Under the pieces are notes generated by a model. It saw only the letters and a list, made by a program, of their open reading frames with translations. It ran no database searches and was not told the origin of the DNA. DNA of 64,000 bases, taken from contig PLWQ01000012.1 in NCBI GenBank assembly GCA_003165595.1, forward strand, positions 90,474 through 154,473. The letters run 5' to 3'. This DNA is from Fibrobacterota bacterium (GTDB taxonomy: Bacteria; Fibrobacterota; Chitinivibrionia; Chitinivibrionales; FEN-1185). Of the stretch, positions 1-48,206 are shown piece by piece; the first letter of the stretch is position 1, and the number at the start of each line of letters is the position of its first letter. The translations under genes and the position numbers were made by a program.

Positions 1-28
1 GTAGAGACGCACGGCCGTGCGTCTCTAC
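1..28. repeat. Perfect 28-bp palindrome
   Basis: The first 14 bases (GTAGAGACGCACGG) are exactly mirrored by the next 14, so the whole stretch is a perfect inverted repeat with no loop. It resembles the short GTAGAGACG-type palindromes that occur dispersed between genes in many environmental bacteria. It directly abuts the module-1 repeat that follows. The window edge may cut a longer element. Confidence 0.75.
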
Positions 29-30
29 AA

Positions 31-148
31 CCGGGGTCGGTCTCTCTGTGGGCTCGGCCTGTTGGCCTCGGTGCCGCCTGCCGCCAGGGCCTGCGGCCGC
101 GGTCAGGCGGCCCTGTGCTCCGGCACACCCGCCGGTCCACCTCACGCG
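31..148 (+). repeat. Structured dispersed repeat, module 1 (copy 1)
   Basis: This copy shares a folded architecture with copies at 5425, 10410, 24537, 24875 (reverse) and 46262. A small hairpin (GGCC-tgtt-GGCC, 56-67) is followed by a long stem (GCCGCCTG 73-80 with CAGGCGGC 104-111). A third hairpin (TGTGC-tccg-GCACA, 114-127) precedes a conserved end of the form GGTCC-n2-CCT-n2-CGC. Stem sequences differ between copies but stay complementary. No coding sequence is evident in it. Confidence 0.7.
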
Positions 149-241: not shown

Positions 242-552
242 TTCATGGCCGCGAAGCGGCATACCTTAGCGAAGGCGTTGCGGAAACGTGACACGCGCAC
301 TGCGCCGGCAGGGCGCCTCGTGCACGTTTCCGCTGGGCAGCGACCAAGACAGCATACTGTTCTCTGGGAGCTGAGGCGATTACGCCCGCGTTGGCAGGTT
401 GTGAGCCAACGGGTATGGGTGCAGATCACCTCCAACGCGCTATTGTCAAGTGCGACGCATCAGAATAGCGCGTTGGAGGAAGCTGCACCCTAGGGATTTC
501 GCGCGCCCAACAGGAAGGGCGCACAAGCGACCGCGCAGCGGTTGCCCCACCA
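242..552 (+). repeat. Structured dispersed repeat, module 2 (copy 1)
   Basis: It starts with the hairpin GCCGC-gaa-GCGGC followed by ATACCT. Next come a stem GCGGAAACGTG (280-290) with CACGTTTCCGC (323-333), an outer stem GGGTGCAG (417-424) with CTGCACCC (483-490), and nested inside it a perfect 16-bp stem (429-444 with 464-479). A terminal hairpin (527-534 with 538-545) is followed by CCCCACCA. The short open frames across it look like artefacts of the palindromes. It ends 13 bp before the stop codon of the UPF0182 gene, so it could also act as that gene's 3' structure. Confidence 0.7.
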
Positions 553-5240: not shown

Positions 5241-5424
5241 TCCATGATGTGCGGCGGCGCGGCAAGCATGGGTACATAGATTTAGGTATAGAAAACGCGG
5301 ATGCGACGACCGCAGGGAATACAAGAAACTACAATACAGCGGAAGGGCGAGGCTAGGAATTGGTGGGGATGAGGAGGCTTTAGTTTCGAGTGAAGTTAGT
5401 AAAAGGACAGGAATAGAAAGATCT

Positions 5425-5555
5425 GGGCGCCCCGCCTTCGGCGGCGGCCCTCCCTCCGGGCTCGGCTGGTCAGCCTCGGTGCAGCCTGCCGCTATGCCTG
5501 ACGGCGCGGTCAGGTAGCCCTGCGCTTTTGCGCACCCACCGGTCCAGCCTGGCGC
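5425..5555 (+). repeat. Structured dispersed repeat, module 1 (copy 2)
   Basis: This copy has the same order as copy 1: hairpin GGCT-ggtc-AGCC (a compensated version of GGCC/GGCC), a partly decayed long stem (GCAGCCTG with CAGGTAGC), hairpin TGCGC-tttt-GCGCA, and the end GGTCC-n2-CCT-n2-CGC. It lies upstream of the Ig-like lipoprotein and is followed about 55 bp later by a module-3 repeat. Confidence 0.65.
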
Positions 5556-8559: not shown

Positions 8560-8605
8560 GGTGAAGAAATCCTGACTGTTTATCAGCCTTCCCCTATATT
8601 TTTTC

Positions 8606-8851
8606 CATGCCGCGAAGCGGCATACCTATGAGAAAGCGTTGCGGAAACGTGACGCGCGCAACGCGCAAGCGTTGTGCCTCGCGCACGTTTCCGCTGGAAG
8701 GGGTGTGCCTCCGGATCGCCGGCGCGTAGCGCCGGAGCCAAAGGCCAGGATGGCCGGGAGGCGACCTGCGAAGCAGGGGCCGCCAGGCCACCGAGCCGGA
8801 CGCGAGGTGCAACCCGGGGGCCAGGGGAAACCGGACACGGTTTCCCCACCA
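8606..8851 (+). repeat. Structured dispersed repeat, module 2 (copy 2)
   Basis: It begins GCCGC-gaa-GCGGC-ATACCTATG. The stem GCGGAAACGTG (8641-8651) with CACGTTTCCGC (8684-8694) is followed by several short GC hairpins. A terminal hairpin GGGGAAACC (8824-8832) with GGTTTCCCC (8839-8847) runs straight into CCCCACCA. This is the same ending as the copy at 242-552 but with a different stem sequence. It occupies most of the spacer before ahcY and would be in the 5' leader if transcription starts upstream of it. Confidence 0.7.
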
Positions 8852-10378: not shown

Positions 10379-10409
10379 CTTCAATTTCGCTTTTGTGAGT
10401 AAAGCATTC

Positions 10410-10590
10410 GGGGGAGAGGTACAGCCTGTCTCGAATCTTGGCGGTAGGCTTGGACGTTCCCCTCGCTACGCTCGGGTCGGCCCTCCCTCCGGGCTCGGCC
10501 AGTTGGCCTCGGTGCCGCCTGCCGCAAGGGCCTGCGGCCGCGGTCAGGCGGCCCTGCGCTTTGGCGCACCACTGCGGTCCGGCCTAACGC
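10410..10590 (+). repeat. Structured dispersed repeat, module 1 (copy 3)
   Basis: This is a full-length copy. The left end is GGGGGAGAGGTACAGCCTG, then CCTCGCTACGCTCGGG, hairpin GGCC-agtt-GGCC (10497-10508), and a long stem GCCGCCTG (10514-10521) with CAGGCGGC (10545-10552). Hairpin TGCGC-tttg-GCGCA and the end GGTCCGGCCTAACGC complete it. It starts 32 bp after the ahcY stop and could serve as its 3' structure. A module-2 copy follows about 115 bp later in the same orientation. Confidence 0.75.
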
Positions 10591-10703
10591 ATGGCAGAAG
10601 ATGCTTGCCACAATAGTAAAATCTGCCTTCGCAAATTTAGCGCAAGAGAATGCTGTTAATCTTGGACTTCTGAATTCGTGATGTGGCATTTTCTTGTTTC
10701 TTG

Positions 10704-10862
10704 ATAGCCGCGAAGCGGCATACCTATGTGGATTCGTTGCAAAGGGGTGACGCCTCGCGAGCGTTAAGCGAACGACTTTGGCGCGCCCCTTTGCTGGAAG
10801 GGGTGTGGGTGCAGACCTCCTTACGCCGGTTTCCGGCGGAAGGAAGCTGCACCCCAGGGATA
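10704..10862 (+). repeat. Structured dispersed repeat, module 2 (copy 3)
   Basis: The GCCGC-gaa-GCGGC-ATACCTATG start is the same as in the other copies. The next stem is GCAAAGGGG (10739-10747) with CCCCTTTGC (10786-10794), entirely different from the GGAAACGTG/CACGTTTCC stem of the other copies yet fully paired. The outer stem GGGTGCAG (10807-10814) with CTGCACCC (10847-10854) is conserved. It encloses a different inner stem (TCCTT-CGCCGG with CCGGCG-AAGGA). The element stops 24 bp before the DUF1697 gene. Confidence 0.7.
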
Positions 10863-12378: not shown

Positions 12379-12683
12379 ATCCTCCGGATGCGCCGCGCAA
12401 AGCCTCGCGTGTCGAGTTTGTTGCATTCACGCTTCTCGTTGCGCCATGAAACCTTCGTGGCGGATTGAATCTTCTTGCATTTTGCTCAATCATTTCCTAT
12501 TTTGCTTGTCCTTTTTTCTTGTCTTACGAATTCCAGACCATTTCACTCTGCGAAAACTCCCGGAAGTCCCCTCAGGAAATCCAGATTAGTTACGCGTTGT
12601 GATTGCCGTCACAGATTCCGGCCGAACGAATTTCTATTTTTTCAGGAAATCAGACAATTTCACCATTTTCAATTGGAGGCACT
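12379..12683. other. Spacer without a gene
   Basis: About 300 bp between thyX and the repeat lipoprotein. It is relatively AT-rich after 12470. I see no recognisable protein, RNA or strong terminator. The lipoprotein's ribosome site (TTGGAGG, 12674-12680) is at its right end. Confidence 0.5.
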
Positions 12684-15440
12684 ATGAATCTCTTTCGAGG
12701 CATTGCCGTTCTGGCGGGTCTATCGGTTCTCATGCTCTTGCAGTGTTCCTTTGACGCCAACTCCATGAAGCCGGTACAGAGTGCGGGAGGATCAGCAACC
12801 ATAAACCTCGTTGCATCTTCCGGCAGTTCCTTTTCCACTCTGGCGAAAAAGGCGAACGCACTTGTAACCGCCGAGGGAATGGATTCAATTCTTCAGGCAC
12901 TATCGGTGAACTCAACCGGTATTACCGGCACCATCGCGGTGATACCGGCAGGGTTCAACCGGAAATTCGAGGTTTTTGTTTATGATTCAACGAACAAATT
13001 ATGTTACTATGGCAGTTCGTATGCCGACGTCGCCGTCGGCGGCGTAGTGAATGTATCTATGAATATTTACAGGTGCTCCGGTTCAGCCACCGGAGGCGCG
13101 ACAATCACCGGTACCATTATTGACTCTGTTCCCACGGCGACAACAAACAAGCTGCCCGTTGTTGCGATCACCTCCCCGGTTAACAACGCGACCTGTCATA
13201 CTGGCGATACCATTACTATCAATGCAACTGCAACCGATTCGGACGGTACGGTAAAGGTCGTGCGTTTCTACACAGATTCGACTCTCCTTGGCTCGGATTC
13301 AACCTCGCCGTTTTCCTACAAGCTTATCGCTGCGGCCGGCACCTATCGTTTCAAGGCTGTAGCGGTTGACAATCAGAATGGAACCGGAACATCTTCGGTC
13401 ATTACCGTCACCGTCAGCGCCGCCCAATACACCGTTACCGCATCGGCAGGAGCAAACGGCACAATTTCGCCGACCGGAACGGTTACGACAAATGTCGGCA
13501 TGGCAGTGACCTTTACCATAACGCCTAGCAGCGGCTACTCGACGAGCCAGTTGCTCGTGGATGGAGCGAGTGTCACTGTAGCCTCGACCTACACCTTCCC
13601 GGCGACGACCACCGGGTCTCACACGATTTCGGCGACCTTTGCCGCGAGCACAGCTTCCAAGCTGACCATAAGCTCTGCAAAAGCATCTTCTGTCAACGGC
13701 GGAAACGTTGCCGCCAACGCGATTGACAATAACATGGGCACACGCTGGGAAAGCACACAAGGTGTCGATCCGCAATGGATCTATGTCGATATCGGTGCCG
13801 GTAAGACGGTGTCCTCGGTGATTCTCTTCTGGGAAGCGGCAAATGCCAAGAACTACACGTTGGAAGCCTCGAACGATTCCACATTCGCAACCAAGACTAC
13901 GCTCGTAACCAAGACGAACATGGCGAATAAAGCGCGCAATGATACTCTGACAGGATTGAATGCGAGCTTCCGCTACATTCGGATGTACGGCACAGCGCGC
14001 AATTTGACGTATGGGTATTCGATATGGGAATTTCAGGTGTATGGAAGCAACAGCGCTGTGCCTGCGGCGCCGACTCTTTCCGCTCCGGCGAACACCGCCA
14101 CGAATGTATCGCTTAATACGGCATTTTCCTGGAATGCGGCGGCTGGCGCAACCAGCTATTTCTTCGAGGCTTCACCGTCTTCGGATTTTACCACAAATGT
14201 CCTTGAGTCGGCGGGCCTGACCTCGCCTGCTTTTACGGCAACCGGGCTGCTCTCGGGAACATTGTATTACTGGCGCGTCTATGCGTCCAATGCAACCGGC
14301 AACGGCGGATGGTCTGCAACCTGGACATTCACCACGGCCGTGCCGGTCCTTTCGGCTCCGGCGAATGCCGCAACGAACGTGGCAACAAATGCGACATTTT
14401 CCTGGAGCGCAGTGGCCGGCGCAACCAGCTATTTCTTTGAAGCATCTCCATCTTCGGATTTTACCATAAATGTCCTTGAGTCAGCGGGCCTGACCTCGCC
14501 TGCTTTCACGGCAAATTCGCTGCTTTCGGGAACATTGTATTATTGGAGAGTCTACGCGGTTAGCGTAAGCGGTAACGGCTCGTGGTCTCCAACCTGGACT
14601 TTCACCACGGCACCGCCGATTCTTTCCGCTCCGGCGAACGGTGCAACGGGTGTATCGCTCAATACGGCATTTTCCTGGAATGCAGTGCCAGGTGCTACCA
14701 GCTATTTCTTAGAGGCTTCCCCGTCTTCGGATTTTACCATAAATGTCCTTGAGTCGGCAGGACTGACCTCGCCTGCTTTCACGGCAACCGGGCTGATTTC
14801 TGGAACATTGTATTACTGGCGCGTCTACGCATCCAATGCAATCGGCACCGGCGGATGGTCTGCAACCTGGACATTCACCACGGCCCTGCCGGTTCTTTCC
14901 GCTCCGGCGAATGCCGCAACAAACGTGGCAACAAATCCGACATTTTCCTGGAGCGCGGTGCCAGGCGCAACCAGCTATTTCTTCGAAGCTTCCCCATCTT
15001 CGGATTTTACCATAAATGTTTTTGAGGCAGCGGGCTTGACATCGCCCACTGTCACGGCAAACCTGCTGCTTTCCGGAACCAAGTACTATTGGCGTGTCTA
15101 CGCGGTGAGTGTAAGCGGCATCGGCTCGTGGTCTCCAACCTGGACATTCACCACGGCACCGCCGATTCTTTCCGCTCCGGCGAACGGTGCAACGGGTGTA
15201 TCGCTCAATACGGCATTTTCCTGGAACGCGGTGGCTGGCGCGACAAGCTATTTCTTCGAGGCTTCACCGTCTCCGGATTTTACCATAAATGTCCTTGAGT
15301 CGGCGGGCCTGACCTCGCCTGCAGTCACGGCAACCGGGCTGCTTTCGGGAACATTGTATTACTGGCGCGTCTACGCGTCCAATGCAATCGGCAACGGCGG
15401 ATGGTCTGCAACCTGGACATTTACGACAACTGCTCAGTAA
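12684..15440 (+). CDS. Multidomain carbohydrate-binding-type lipoprotein
   Basis: This 918-residue surface lipoprotein has a signal peptide with lipobox LLQC at about residues 16-19. After a variable region it has a bacterial Ig-like domain (about 150-245, DSDGTVKVVRFYTDSTLLGS), an InlB-B-type repeat (YTVTASAGANGTISPTG, about 250-325) and an F5/8 type C (discoidin-like) domain (about 330-455, ANAIDNNMGTRWEST, ending SIWEFQVYG). Five tandem fibronectin-III-like repeats of about 90 residues end the protein. No catalytic domain is visible, so binding or adhesion to polysaccharide at the cell surface is inferred. TTGGAGG four bases before the ATG fixes the start. A classic terminator follows. Confidence 0.88.
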   Translation: MNLFRGIAVLAGLSVLMLLQCSFDANSMKPVQSAGGSATINLVASSGSSFSTLAKKANALVTAEGMDSILQALSVNSTGITGTIAVIPAGFNRKFEVFVYDSTNKLCYYGSSYADVAVGGVVNVSMNIYRCSGSATGGATITGTIIDSVPTATTNKLPVVAITSPVNNATCHTGDTITINATATDSDGTVKVVRFYTDSTLLGSDSTSPFSYKLIAAAGTYRFKAVAVDNQNGTGTSSVITVTVSAAQYTVTASAGANGTISPTGTVTTNVGMAVTFTITPSSGYSTSQLLVDGASVTVASTYTFPATTTGSHTISATFAASTASKLTISSAKASSVNGGNVAANAIDNNMGTRWESTQGVDPQWIYVDIGAGKTVSSVILFWEAANAKNYTLEASNDSTFATKTTLVTKTNMANKARNDTLTGLNASFRYIRMYGTARNLTYGYSIWEFQVYGSNSAVPAAPTLSAPANTATNVSLNTAFSWNAAAGATSYFFEASPSSDFTTNVLESAGLTSPAFTATGLLSGTLYYWRVYASNATGNGGWSATWTFTTAVPVLSAPANAATNVATNATFSWSAVAGATSYFFEASPSSDFTINVLESAGLTSPAFTANSLLSGTLYYWRVYAVSVSGNGSWSPTWTFTTAPPILSAPANGATGVSLNTAFSWNAVPGATSYFLEASPSSDFTINVLESAGLTSPAFTATGLISGTLYYWRVYASNAIGTGGWSATWTFTTALPVLSAPANAATNVATNPTFSWSAVPGATSYFFEASPSSDFTINVFEAAGLTSPTVTANLLLSGTKYYWRVYAVSVSGIGSWSPTWTFTTAPPILSAPANGATGVSLNTAFSWNAVAGATSYFFEASPSPDFTINVLESAGLTSPAVTATGLLSGTLYYWRVYASNAIGNGGWSATWTFTTTAQ
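14071..15437 (+). repeat. Five near-identical 270-bp coding repeats (A-B-A-B-A)
   Basis: Units begin near 14071, 14341, 14611, 14883 and 15158, each encoding an FN3-like domain that opens with LSAPAN and closes with WTFTTA. Units 1, 3 and 5 share the variant SLNTAFSWNA and ASNA-x-GxGGWSATW. Units 2 and 4 share NVATNxTFSWSA and AVSVSGxGSWSPTW. DNA identity is very high, which indicates recent duplication of a two-unit block of about 540 bp. Confidence 0.9.
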
Positions 15441-15488
15441 TGATTGGCGAATGCTGAGATCTTGATTCCAGGAGTGGTTAGATCTTCG

Positions 15489-24493: not shown

Positions 24494-24718
24494 CGGGGGA
24501 AGTGCAGTGCCTGGACAATACCACAAATTAGTCTTTGGTGGGGGAAGTGCAGCCTGTCTCAAATCTTGACAGTGGGTTTGGGCGTTCCCCTCGCTACGCT
24601 CGGGTCGGCCCTCCCTCCGTGCTCGGCCGTTCGGCCTCGGTGCCGGACCGCCCGGATTGCCTTCGGCGCGGGTCGGCCGGTACCGCGCTTTGGCGCGCAC
24701 TGCGGTCCTTCCTAACGC
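24494..24718 (+). repeat. Structured dispersed repeat, module 1 (copy 4) with a doubled left end
   Basis: The full copy runs 24537-24718. Its left end is GGTGGGGGAAGTGCAGCCTG, then CCTCGCTACGCTCGGG, hairpin GGCC-gttc-GGCC, a stem GTGCCGG with CCGGTAC (one G-U pair), hairpin CGCGC-tttg-GCGCG, and the end CCTAACGC. A second, isolated left-end fragment (GGGGGAAGTGCAGTGCCTG) lies at 24495-24513. The element follows the stop codon of the activator gene. Confidence 0.7.
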
Positions 24719-24874
24719 ATGCGTGCAAACGTCGGTGGCAGATAAGTGCTGCGGTGAAACTTTGAGAGTGGTTTTGAACTATTCCCTGCTCGACAAACAG
24801 CAATTCACAGAATAGACAGGAATGCGAAAGTGGGCGACAACTGTTTGTGGGGGAGATGGAGAGGATGGTTTCTT

Positions 24875-25045
24875 GCGCCAGGGGCGACGGAAGGTGTGCC
24901 CGAGCACAGTGCCGGCCGACCCGGCCGCCAGGCATAGGGCGGACCGGCACCGAGGCGAATAGCCGAGCCTGGAGAGCCGGAGCACAGGATGTGCGGAGAC
25001 CACGCACGAAGCGCGCCCGAAGGGTGCTGAGCCGGACGCGAAGCA
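24875..25045 (-). repeat. Structured dispersed repeat, module 1 (copy 5, inverted)
   Basis: Read on the minus strand it shows GGCT-att-CGCC, the long stem GTGCCGG with CCGGCAC, the hairpin TGTGC-tcgg-GCACA and a decayed 3' end. It faces copy 4 across about 150 bp. The rest of the spacer from 24719 to 25252 holds no recognisable gene. Confidence 0.6.
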
Positions 25046-25252
25046 TGAACAAAGAACCGGTGCTGCAAGGCAGGCGCCCAGATTTAACGGGGTTACGAGA
25101 CGACCTCAGTTTCCCCCTCGCTCCGGCCTTAGGCGTACTGCGCTACCCCTCTCGGCTGGCAGATTCTTGTTTCTCATCCCTCTTTGTCTCTCAACAGAAG
25201 CGTATTCTATATTATAAATTCTTCCATTTCTTAACCGGGGTACGGCATCGGA

Positions 25253-46210: not shown

Positions 46211-46261
46211 TTTATACCTCCAGATAAGGGCTATGTTCTTGATAATATAGAACTGATCCGG

Positions 46262-46303
46262 GCAGCACCGCGCTTTTGCGCGGCTCCCAGTCCTGCCTTG
46301 CGC
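46262..46303 (+). repeat. Structured dispersed repeat, module 1 (3' end fragment)
   Basis: Only the last part remains: hairpin CCGCGC-tttt-GCGCGG (46268-46283) followed by GTCC-n2-CCT-n2-CGC. It is immediately followed by module 3, as at 5425-5745. Confidence 0.55.
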
Positions 46304-46545: not shown

Positions 46546-48159
46546 TTACTTCGAGATCCACGCCGCCGATTGCGTCACGGTCTGGACGGGCGAATCATCC
46601 TGATAGGAAACGACCACGGAATCCTCGTCCTGGACGGCGATAAATCCCGGCCGGGGCAATCCGGTGGTAAACCCGACCGTACCGGTAAAATTCCTGATCG
46701 TCGTTCCGGAAACATGGAGCGTGTCCGAAATTCCTGTTGGGTCTTTTTTGCTCCTGACGTTTACAATTGCGGTGCTGTCCGCGATGTCATCGTCGCTCAG
46801 GTTGATGGTCATGGCGCTGGCCGTTCCATGGTAAGCGGACGAGTCCAGGAACATGATGCCAAGAACCGGCTGCCATATGCAGGCGCCTGCCGCGACGTTG
46901 GCGACAGGCGTCAGGTCGTGGTAGATTATGGAAATGGTGTCGGCAAGAGAGCCCATCACGGCCAGGACGCTGTCGGCAGTAGACCCCTTGAGGGAAAACC
47001 AGATGTGGCCGTAGAAGTCGCCGTCAGACCCGCCTGCGGCATGCAAAGCGACGGAGAAACCGGTTTTGTCCTTAAGGCTGGAAACATGCACTGCGACCGT
47101 GGAATCTGCAACATCGGAATCCCAGACATGAATCGACAGCGGCCGTACAACGCCCAAAACCGGCGAACCGCCGGGCTGGACTGTGCCCGCGACGCCGTTC
47201 CAGGTTGTCGAAACGGAATCAACTTGCGTTGGTGAAGCCGTGTACACGGCGGTCACATTGTCGCCATCGGCAACGTATATGGTTTTCTTGATGGAATCCG
47301 ATTTTGCTATCGAGAAAGAAATGCTGTCTGCATATGTTGCAACAGCACCCGCCACCGCCGCGAGTGTCACGGAGAAACCTTTTGGGTCGGAGGTGCTTTT
47401 CACCCTCGCCCGGACCGACGCGGCCGAAACCTGCGAGTCAACCACCGTGATCACGAGCGGGACAATGCAGCTTTGGTATGATCCGTTGGGGAACAAGATG
47501 CTTGCCGCATGACCGCCGCTTGCAGCCAGCAGGAAATCGTTGGCACCGGCGTAGGCCGCGATTGCCTTGCGCACGCTTGCATGGCCGCCAGCCGAAACCA
47601 CAAGCGTGTCGATTGCGGCGGCTGTCTTGGCAAGCGCGCCCGATGCGTCAGCCACTGCACGCAGGCCGGCCGCTTCCCTGGCGCCATCCTTTACAAAGAG
47701 CACCCGGAACGTGCCAAGAAACGCCCCGACCCTGAGCCGTACGAAGCACAGCCCCGCGCCGTGGCCGGAGCCGCCCGGGTAAAAACGGTAGGTACCGCGG
47801 GCCGGTCGGGCTTCAACATGCGGCGACAGGATCATGCCCAGAGCGTCGAACACGTCGATGTGAACCGTCTCGCTGCCGTCAACGCCGAATTCAAGGCCGC
47901 CGCGCCCGACAACGGGGAGTTTGCTCGCAGGAGCGGCGTTCTGCCGCACGGGTCGCAAGCCGGAACCGGTAAGCACGTATACTCCGTTGGTGTCCGTAAG
48001 CGTAGACAGCCCGGCAACAGCGAGACTCACCTGAGCGCCCGCAACACCAGCCCTCGTCGCGGAATCCCGTACCGTTCCGGTAAGACTGACGGTCTCGGCG
48101 AAGGAGAGAAATAATCCGCCGGCGATAAGCACGAGTGAGGGAATAACGATTAGTTTCAT
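46546..48159 (-). CDS. Secreted carboxypeptidase-regulatory-like domain protein, unknown
   Basis: This 537-residue exported protein has a signal peptide (about 1-22). A carboxypeptidase regulatory-like domain follows (SLTGTVRDSATRAGVAGAQV, VSLAVAGLSTLTDTNGVYVL). Then comes a beta segment resembling a sorting or FlgD-type domain (ETVHIDVFDALGMILS...GLCFVRLRVGAFLGTFRVLF). The rest is a series of repeated beta-rich units of about 95 residues, each with a 'DSxVxDSTVxVxVxSxKDxTGxS' motif (for example DDDIADSTAIVNVRSKKDPT). No enzyme domain is seen. ATG at 48159 is preferred to TTG at 48168. Its upstream region is a repeat fragment. It follows the GH30 gene by 47 bp and is probably in the same operon. 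Confidence 0.78.
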   Translation of the reverse strand: MKLIVIPSLVLIAGGLFLSFAETVSLTGTVRDSATRAGVAGAQVSLAVAGLSTLTDTNGVYVLTGSGLRPVRQNAAPASKLPVVGRGGLEFGVDGSETVHIDVFDALGMILSPHVEARPARGTYRFYPGGSGHGAGLCFVRLRVGAFLGTFRVLFVKDGAREAAGLRAVADASGALAKTAAAIDTLVVSAGGHASVRKAIAAYAGANDFLLAASGGHAASILFPNGSYQSCIVPLVITVVDSQVSAASVRARVKSTSDPKGFSVTLAAVAGAVATYADSISFSIAKSDSIKKTIYVADGDNVTAVYTASPTQVDSVSTTWNGVAGTVQPGGSPVLGVVRPLSIHVWDSDVADSTVAVHVSSLKDKTGFSVALHAAGGSDGDFYGHIWFSLKGSTADSVLAVMGSLADTISIIYHDLTPVANVAAGACIWQPVLGIMFLDSSAYHGTASAMTINLSDDDIADSTAIVNVRSKKDPTGISDTLHVSGTTIRNFTGTVGFTTGLPRPGFIAVQDEDSVVVSYQDDSPVQTVTQSAAWISK

Positions 48160-48185
48160 TTGAGACAAGCTGCACTTCCCCCACC
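48158..48185 (-). repeat. Left-end fragment of module 1 at the start of a gene
   Basis: On the minus strand this 28-mer matches the left end of the module-1 copy at 24537-24564 in 27 of 28 positions (GGTGGGGGAAGTGCAGC then T/C, TGTCTCAAAT). Its final AT are the first bases of the start codon of the gene at 46546-48159. Confidence 0.75.
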
Positions 48186-48206
48186 TAAAGAACTTCTTAG
48201 GTATTC

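Follow-up and report, generated by a model that had tools for sequence, protein, structure and literature searches.

A 64,000-nucleotide stretch of a Fibrobacterota genome (contig PLWQ01000012.1, positions 90,474 to 154,473; the whole stretch is referred to here as the window) carries several copies of a short, dispersed element, module 1, whose putatively paired positions differ between copies in a concerted manner. The question raised by this locus is what the folded form is kept for, and whether the molecule that folds is RNA or DNA. The original prediction, made from the sequence alone, had put copies at six places, each read as a hairpin, a long stem and a second hairpin, and had proposed that the folded form is under selection and that the element may be mobilized from elsewhere.

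Limits and architecture of module 1

All six places do contain module 1, with limits that had to be corrected: the covariance model R1 found five of the copies at E 8e-10 or better, and nhmmer recovered the sixth, a truncated plus-strand copy (46260..46303) that retains the 3' side of stem P5 together with P6, P3 and P1 (stems as defined below). The copy predicted to begin at 10410 is present but begins later, since bases 10410-10450 are upstream sequence found only in one subclass of copies; the complete copy, TGGACGTT...CCTAACGC, lies at 10451..10590 on the plus strand and scores 123.9 bits (E 1.6e-19) with R1, of which it is one of the building sequences. A further plus-strand copy runs over the start of the window (1..147, beginning 24 bases upstream of it) and holds the palindrome GTAGAGACGC nested in P2, and another, at 5424..5555 on the same strand (E 4.5e-17), belongs to a subfamily with GCGCC/GGCGC ends. 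The remaining two form the halves of a composite (24538..25117) in which modules in inverted orientation lie between imperfect GGGGGAAGTGCAG..CTCAGTTTCCCCC ends, the left half at 24579..24718 on the plus strand (E 3.3e-18) and the right half at 24875..25080 on the minus strand (24888-24974 in the covariance model match, E 8e-10), the latter about 70 bases above the norm through an internal insertion. The composite constitutes the long class of copies, of which about 12 were counted in the genome by their left end. Its imperfect inverted ends read GGGGGAAGTTCAG.., with one module per end in opposite orientation, and a solitary composite end lies at window 48158-48188.

The predicted order of stems is correct for the three stems that it names and is incomplete: missing from it were the closing stem, another hairpin immediately within that stem and the GGYY/RRCC stem that encloses the three. 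In the plus-strand copy at 10451-10590, P1 (10454..10458, paired with 10586..10590) closes the element, and within it lie the hairpin P2 (CCC..GGG, 10460..10476) and the stem P3 (GGCC at 10479..10482 with GGCC at 10581..10584). Inward of P3 follow a Y-R pair, a short helix and then a four-way junction where P4, P5 and P6 meet. This inner helix (5' side 10486..10493; 3' partners 10569..10577, overlapping the GGTCC box) is composed of P3b, 10486-10487 with 10576-10577, and P3c, 10491-10493 with 10569-10572. P4 (GGCC/GGCC, 10497..10508) and P6 (TGCGC/GCGCA, 10555..10568) are the first and last hairpins of the original prediction and P5 (10512..10554, 10512-10524 with 10541-10554) is its long stem; they correspond to covariation helices 6, 9 and 7-8, respectively.

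Alternative paired forms occur throughout this structure. P1 is either GCGTT/AACGC or GCGCC/GGCGC (in full GGGCGTT..AACGC and GGGCGCC..GGCGC), its inner bases being TT/AA in 44 and CC/GG in 23 of the 73 copies tabulated, with TA 33 and CG 22 at pair 7-178 and TA 31 and CG 21 at pair 8-177. The P2 pair 11-56 is CG in 31 copies, GC in 24 and GU in one, and P3 is GGT/ACC, GGCT/AGCC or GGTT/AACC in other copies. Further inside, in the P3b/P3c helix, pair 68-167 is CG 31, TA 21, GC 2 and UG 1 and pair 73-161 is GC 41, UA 7, AU 5 and CG 1, the P5 pair 99-136 is GC 29 and CG 26, and the P6 pair 144-159 is UA 35 and CG 18.

When 36 pairs were scored in an alignment of 56 copies, 93% of cells were paired, and both sides had changed in 21 of the 36. 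Cells changed on both sides numbered 245. Shuffles gave 88 +/- 6.5 and alignments with the partners slid by 1-3 columns no more than 49, so the compensatory change that had been claimed for the paired positions lies far above chance. In a covariation search made without any assumed structure, the highest-ranking pairs were likewise Watson-Crick (68-167, 11-56, 144-159, 105-128, 73-161, 7-178, 99-136 and 93-143). Because the shuffles ignore kinship among copies, switches were also reconstructed on a tree made from the remaining columns. Parsimony requires at least 16 of them at pair 68-167 and at least eight at each of the two varying P1 pairs; weak resolution of the tree and possible recombination among copies make these counts a guide, and a single event may account for the variation at pair 99-136. 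Single copies did not fold with better energy than their shuffles (z -1.6 to -0.05), a measure that is uninformative here, and the structural case rests on covariation. With compensatory change seen in the organism's own genome, in its genus-mate and across phyla, selection on the folded form is strongly supported, as the original prediction had proposed.

Dispersal of the element and the repeats around it

Module 1 is dispersed in more than 100 intergenic copies. There are 130 occurrences of its 10-base core, GCCTCGGTGC, in a genome of 5,392,472 bases, compared with nine of the reversed control, and nhmmer gave 133 matches (105 distinct sequences) over the parts of the genome that were fetched. 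The median distances to the nearest open reading frame on the two sides were 55 and 104 bases. The module is also abundant in the only other genome of the genus. Upstream, similarity among copies starts at TGGGCG, and downstream of CGC most copies continue with GGCAGAAG..TTGCC, whereas the long class has the unrelated ATGCGTGCGAGCGAC; in the window the linker common to most short-class copies, GGCAGAAG..TTGCCACAATAGTAAA, occupies 10593..10620 on the plus strand. P1 thus marks both ends of the element.

Copy number differs widely among carrier genomes: four from Algoriphagus have one or two each, whereas an Algibacter genome has at least 121 and one from Spirochaetales at least 150. This range, and the finding of no transposase among the 40 large open reading frames of the window that were scanned, agree with mobilization from elsewhere; the lack of a transposase in the window had been remarked on when the element was first described. 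In one Bacteroidales genome (G183) the context GAAT..AGCAAAGCG was found both with and without TGGGCG..ACGC between its two parts, and the filled and empty sites are joined without target duplication; as these contexts are themselves repeats, mosaic recombination could have produced them instead of transposition. At several loci of that genome (L183, L256, L276 and others) the short repeats TAGAATTTAGAAT, TTGTCAATTG and GGCTGACGC form a mosaic, with the element as one of its exchangeable blocks, and GGCTGACGC might be a remnant of its two ends.

A Flavo-1-like element (the family is discussed below) lies at the start of ileS, antisense to the gene, in seven Algoriphagus genomes (L193, L203, L209, L237, L239, L240 and L267). 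Its framework is constant, and the inner hairpin is wholly different between some of these genomes, a pattern that suggests either exchange between copies or a local role that has been kept.

Other repeats are interwoven with module 1. In the organism's own genome the tips of P2 and P6 can carry other palindromic repeats, and in several copies the P2 tip has been swapped for one. One type, GTAGAGRCGCA..TGCGYCTCTAC, lies in the tip of P2 (or P5), a repeat nested in the loop of a repeat; it occurs at window 1-28 and at L008, L006, L018, L047, L128, L035 and L110, and in some copies Ns in the assembly coincide with it. Palindromic inserts of two more kinds, TATAACACGCCC..GGGCGTGTTGAAT and GCGCTTTCCGCCC..GGGCGGGCGC, are found at fixed places of the module (L104, L089 and L064; L109, L035 and L110). 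Another dispersed repeat, GCCGCGAAGCGGCATACCT..GCGTTGCGGAAACGTGAC, is present at window 242-292, 8603-8653 and 10701-10751, often 100-200 bases 3' of module 1. An open reading frame of the window (12603-15440), with F5/8 type C and fibronectin type III domains, also contains a 273-base unit repeated five times in tandem (14068-15459), the copies being 78-90% alike.

Relatives in other phyla and the link to Flavo-1

Full-length matches to R1 were found in nine of 168 genomes of the phylum, from several families. A similar repeat in Bacteroidetes, which we presumed to exist, prompted a scan of 84,980 species with a pattern describing the framework of P1 and P2 alone, the last base of P1 being left free and the 3' end unspecified. 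At least 118 stretches matched, mostly in Bacteroidota; the other taxa among the matches listed were Spirochaetota, Fibrobacter, Gemmatimonadota, Myxococcales and a few others, and the pattern also occurred on six viral contigs. These elements share the ends and framework TGGGCGTN-P2-TCGGG..CCCTNACGC. Among the matches listed, 115 had an identifiable end, and in all 115 the freely varying closing pair was Watson-Crick (G-C 72, T-A 37, C-G 4, A-T 2). A second free pair, in P3, was A-T in 45, T-A in 38, C-G in 15 and G-C in 12, with five mismatches and no wobble pair, and a separate alignment of 54 sequences showed like covariation behaviour.

The Rfam search that had been recommended gave a divided answer, the window copy having no match and some of its relatives matching Flavo-1 (RF01705) on the opposite strand. 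The region of the window copy (10380-10640) had no Flavo-1 match up to E 10, and RF01705 was absent from the whole window at its gathering score. On the opposite strand of the scan elements, Flavo-1 was found once above the gathering score of 42 (L180, 44.7 bits) and several times below it. Neither the window nor the relatives matched HEARO/IscB guide RNA (RF02033) or any other Rfam family apart from Flavo-1; a match to twister-sister was below threshold and was taken as chance.

The two groups of elements are connected in both directions by covariance models, the E-values of which are rough because calibration was short. R2, from which sequences of this phylum had been left out, gave full-length matches to copies of the genus-mate (L049, E 1.1e-5; L047, 7e-4) and to order-mate copies (L172 and L169, E 3-4e-4), and R1 found elements in Leptospiraceae (L243, E 6e-5) and Chitinophagaceae (L226, E 1e-3), together with viral elements within the same range. 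R2 gave no meaningful match to the window copies, so the link to Flavo-1 runs via intermediates. The Rfam model of Flavo-1 spans P3 and its interior only, with P1 and P2 lying outside it, and the window copy has the four-way junction of P4-P6 where Flavo-1 has an interior of its own. The framework is common to elements of several phyla, Flavo-1 included, and on these sequence comparisons module 1 is a divergent, enlarged relative of Flavo-1 rather than a member of RF01705.

The folded molecule and its proposed mobility

We think it somewhat probable (about 0.6) that module 1 is a non-autonomous mobile cassette, the folded strand of which is recognized by machinery acting in trans. The strand that folds is probably the minus strand of the window, on which 76-77% of the conserved unpaired bases are purines (23-24% on the plus strand) and which folds more stably in 79% of the organism's own copies and 90% of the others; this is also the strand chosen for Flavo-1.

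Of the other explanations, the one with most in its favour, although clearly less probable, is that of a structured non-coding RNA family, in which a minus-strand transcript acts as a small RNA or leader and copies have been multiplied by duplication. Flavo-1 was one of 104 candidate RNAs reported by Weinberg et al. (2010; PMC2864571), who rated it a probable RNA with no cis-regulatory role; it is listed by Rfam as a small RNA, and in a survey of 2022 it ranked with the most abundant small-RNA families of bacteria (PMC9029176). The purine-rich loops of the minus strand and the conserved copy at ileS in Algoriphagus would also suit an RNA. However, in the transcriptome of Flavobacterium psychrophilum Flavo-1 matches were indistinctly sense or antisense and many lay outside transcribed regions, although some were in transcribed 5' regions, and no function could be assigned (PMC9723704). 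Nor is there any bias in orientation relative to neighbouring genes, the four classes numbering 18/18/17/9 in the organism's own genome and its genus-mate and 23/23/17/14 in other genomes, and a terminator or leader role was rejected on this ground. An excess of wobble pairs is likewise absent: G-T and A-C occupied 16 and 21 paired cells, respectively, near-equal counts that would also be expected from neutral drift of old copies, and no wobble pair was seen in 230 cells at the two freely varying positions, although low wobble counts and the G+C richness of the element make this a weak guide to DNA as against RNA. Copy numbers above 100, varying greatly between related genomes, also speak against an RNA family. 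On balance we lean towards an element acting at the level of DNA rather than one with a transcribed function, single-stranded DNA being what we infer and not what the pair counts establish.

A retroelement resembling a bacterial SINE, in which the minus-strand RNA would be reverse-transcribed and inserted and the fold would be needed by the reverse transcriptase, seems improbable. RNA-like purine-rich loops and spread without an open reading frame would fit, and the organism's own genome has one reverse transcriptase match; however, this is a single locus whose link to the modules is conjectural, there is no poly-A-like tail, and the missing wobble excess tells against this explanation too.

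Slightly less probable still, and largely refuted, is the view that module 1 is a REP-type element mobilized by a Y1 (RAYT/TnpA-REP) transposase. These enzymes suggested themselves first as partners, since in Bacteroidetes Y1 genes of subclass 2.6 are flanked by unnamed atypical structures with copies elsewhere in the genome (PMC6006769). Module 1 resembles REP/BIME sequences in being folded, intergenic, high in copy number, non-coding and mosaic with other repeats, and, at the sites compared in one Bacteroidales genome, in its joining without target duplication. However, REPs are hairpins of 21-65 bases and module 1 is multi-branched and of 130-200 bases; the consensus of its foot and flank has no GT[AG]G tetranucleotide (the GTAG/GTGG guide box), and it has no linked Y1 gene. 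The complete Y1 gene of the organism's own genome (L141, G000:C33:23560-26904) is ringed by REP-like repeats of its own, ATGCAACCCTTTCAGGGTAGCC and CTTGCCCCTTCAGGGCAAG, which differ from module 1, and no repeats of the module 1 kind surround the second Y1 gene. In carrier genomes part of the element was near two of 30 Y1 loci and one of 20 further loci, several of these subclass 2.6-like, which is about background (3/50), and eight of 30 carriers, some of them incomplete, had no PF01797 match. Y1/RAYT transposases were rejected as partner on the ground that the element does not flank the Y1 genes of its carriers. Other partners were sought in two ways: recurrent protein families beside elements at 124 loci were only orthologous housekeeping loci, and no autonomous element with an internal gene was found among elements lacking a near 3' end. 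A literature search with the consensus sequence returned nothing relevant.

Least probable is a cis-acting DNA site (for recombination, replication arrest or chromosome organization) kept by homogenization rather than transposition, which could explain the exchange of inner hairpins between unchanged flanks at one orthologous locus and the exact placing of other palindromic repeats in hairpin tips, but the element is absent or single-copy in many relatives, which indicates no general chromosomal need.

Returning to the mobile cassette, we propose that a unit of about 130-200 bases (about 140 in the window copy), ending at the two sides of P1, folds on one of its strands. On that strand, which is probably the minus one, P1, P2 and P3 would meet in a three-way junction enclosing the four-way junction of P4, P5 and P6. 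An enzyme supplied in trans would recognize the stem geometry and a few fixed bases of the folded strand and would move the cassette without target duplication. Copies competent to fold would keep spreading, so that paired bases change together, and inserted copies would drift afterwards. In this scheme the property under selection would be mobility rather than transcription. Four observations tell against it: no mobilizing enzyme was found in the searches made, the copy kept at ileS possibly has a local function, the folding energy of single copies is no more favourable than that of shuffles, and the filled and empty sites lie in repetitive contexts from which mosaic recombination could yield them.

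Two further systems offer partial parallels. Like MITEs, module 1 is short, non-coding and dispersed, and the composite at 24538-25117 has imperfect inverted ends; unlike them, it has only a 5-bp closing stem at its ends, its conserved part is the internal structure, and target duplication was not seen at the sites compared in one Bacteroidales genome. Integron attC sites are recognized as a folded single strand and have a GTT/AAC pair near the foot, as has module 1, in which, unlike attC, GTT comes first and AAC last on both strands and the fold is branched.

Our data suggest that Flavo-1, though catalogued as a small RNA, is a mobile folding DNA element of several phyla. A bolder extension, which we advance as a tentative and rather less than even proposition, is that Flavo-1 would be the core of a large superfamily of DNA cassettes with P1 ends, folded and recognized as single strands, that would belong to an undescribed transposition system in Bacteroidota, Spirochaetota, this phylum and others. 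The occurrence of all four Watson-Crick closing pairs makes these elements an unusually clean test case for compensatory evolution. If they are indeed mobile folded DNA, they would represent a widespread mobile system with no known enzyme, and the annotation of Flavo-1 would be wrong in many genomes.
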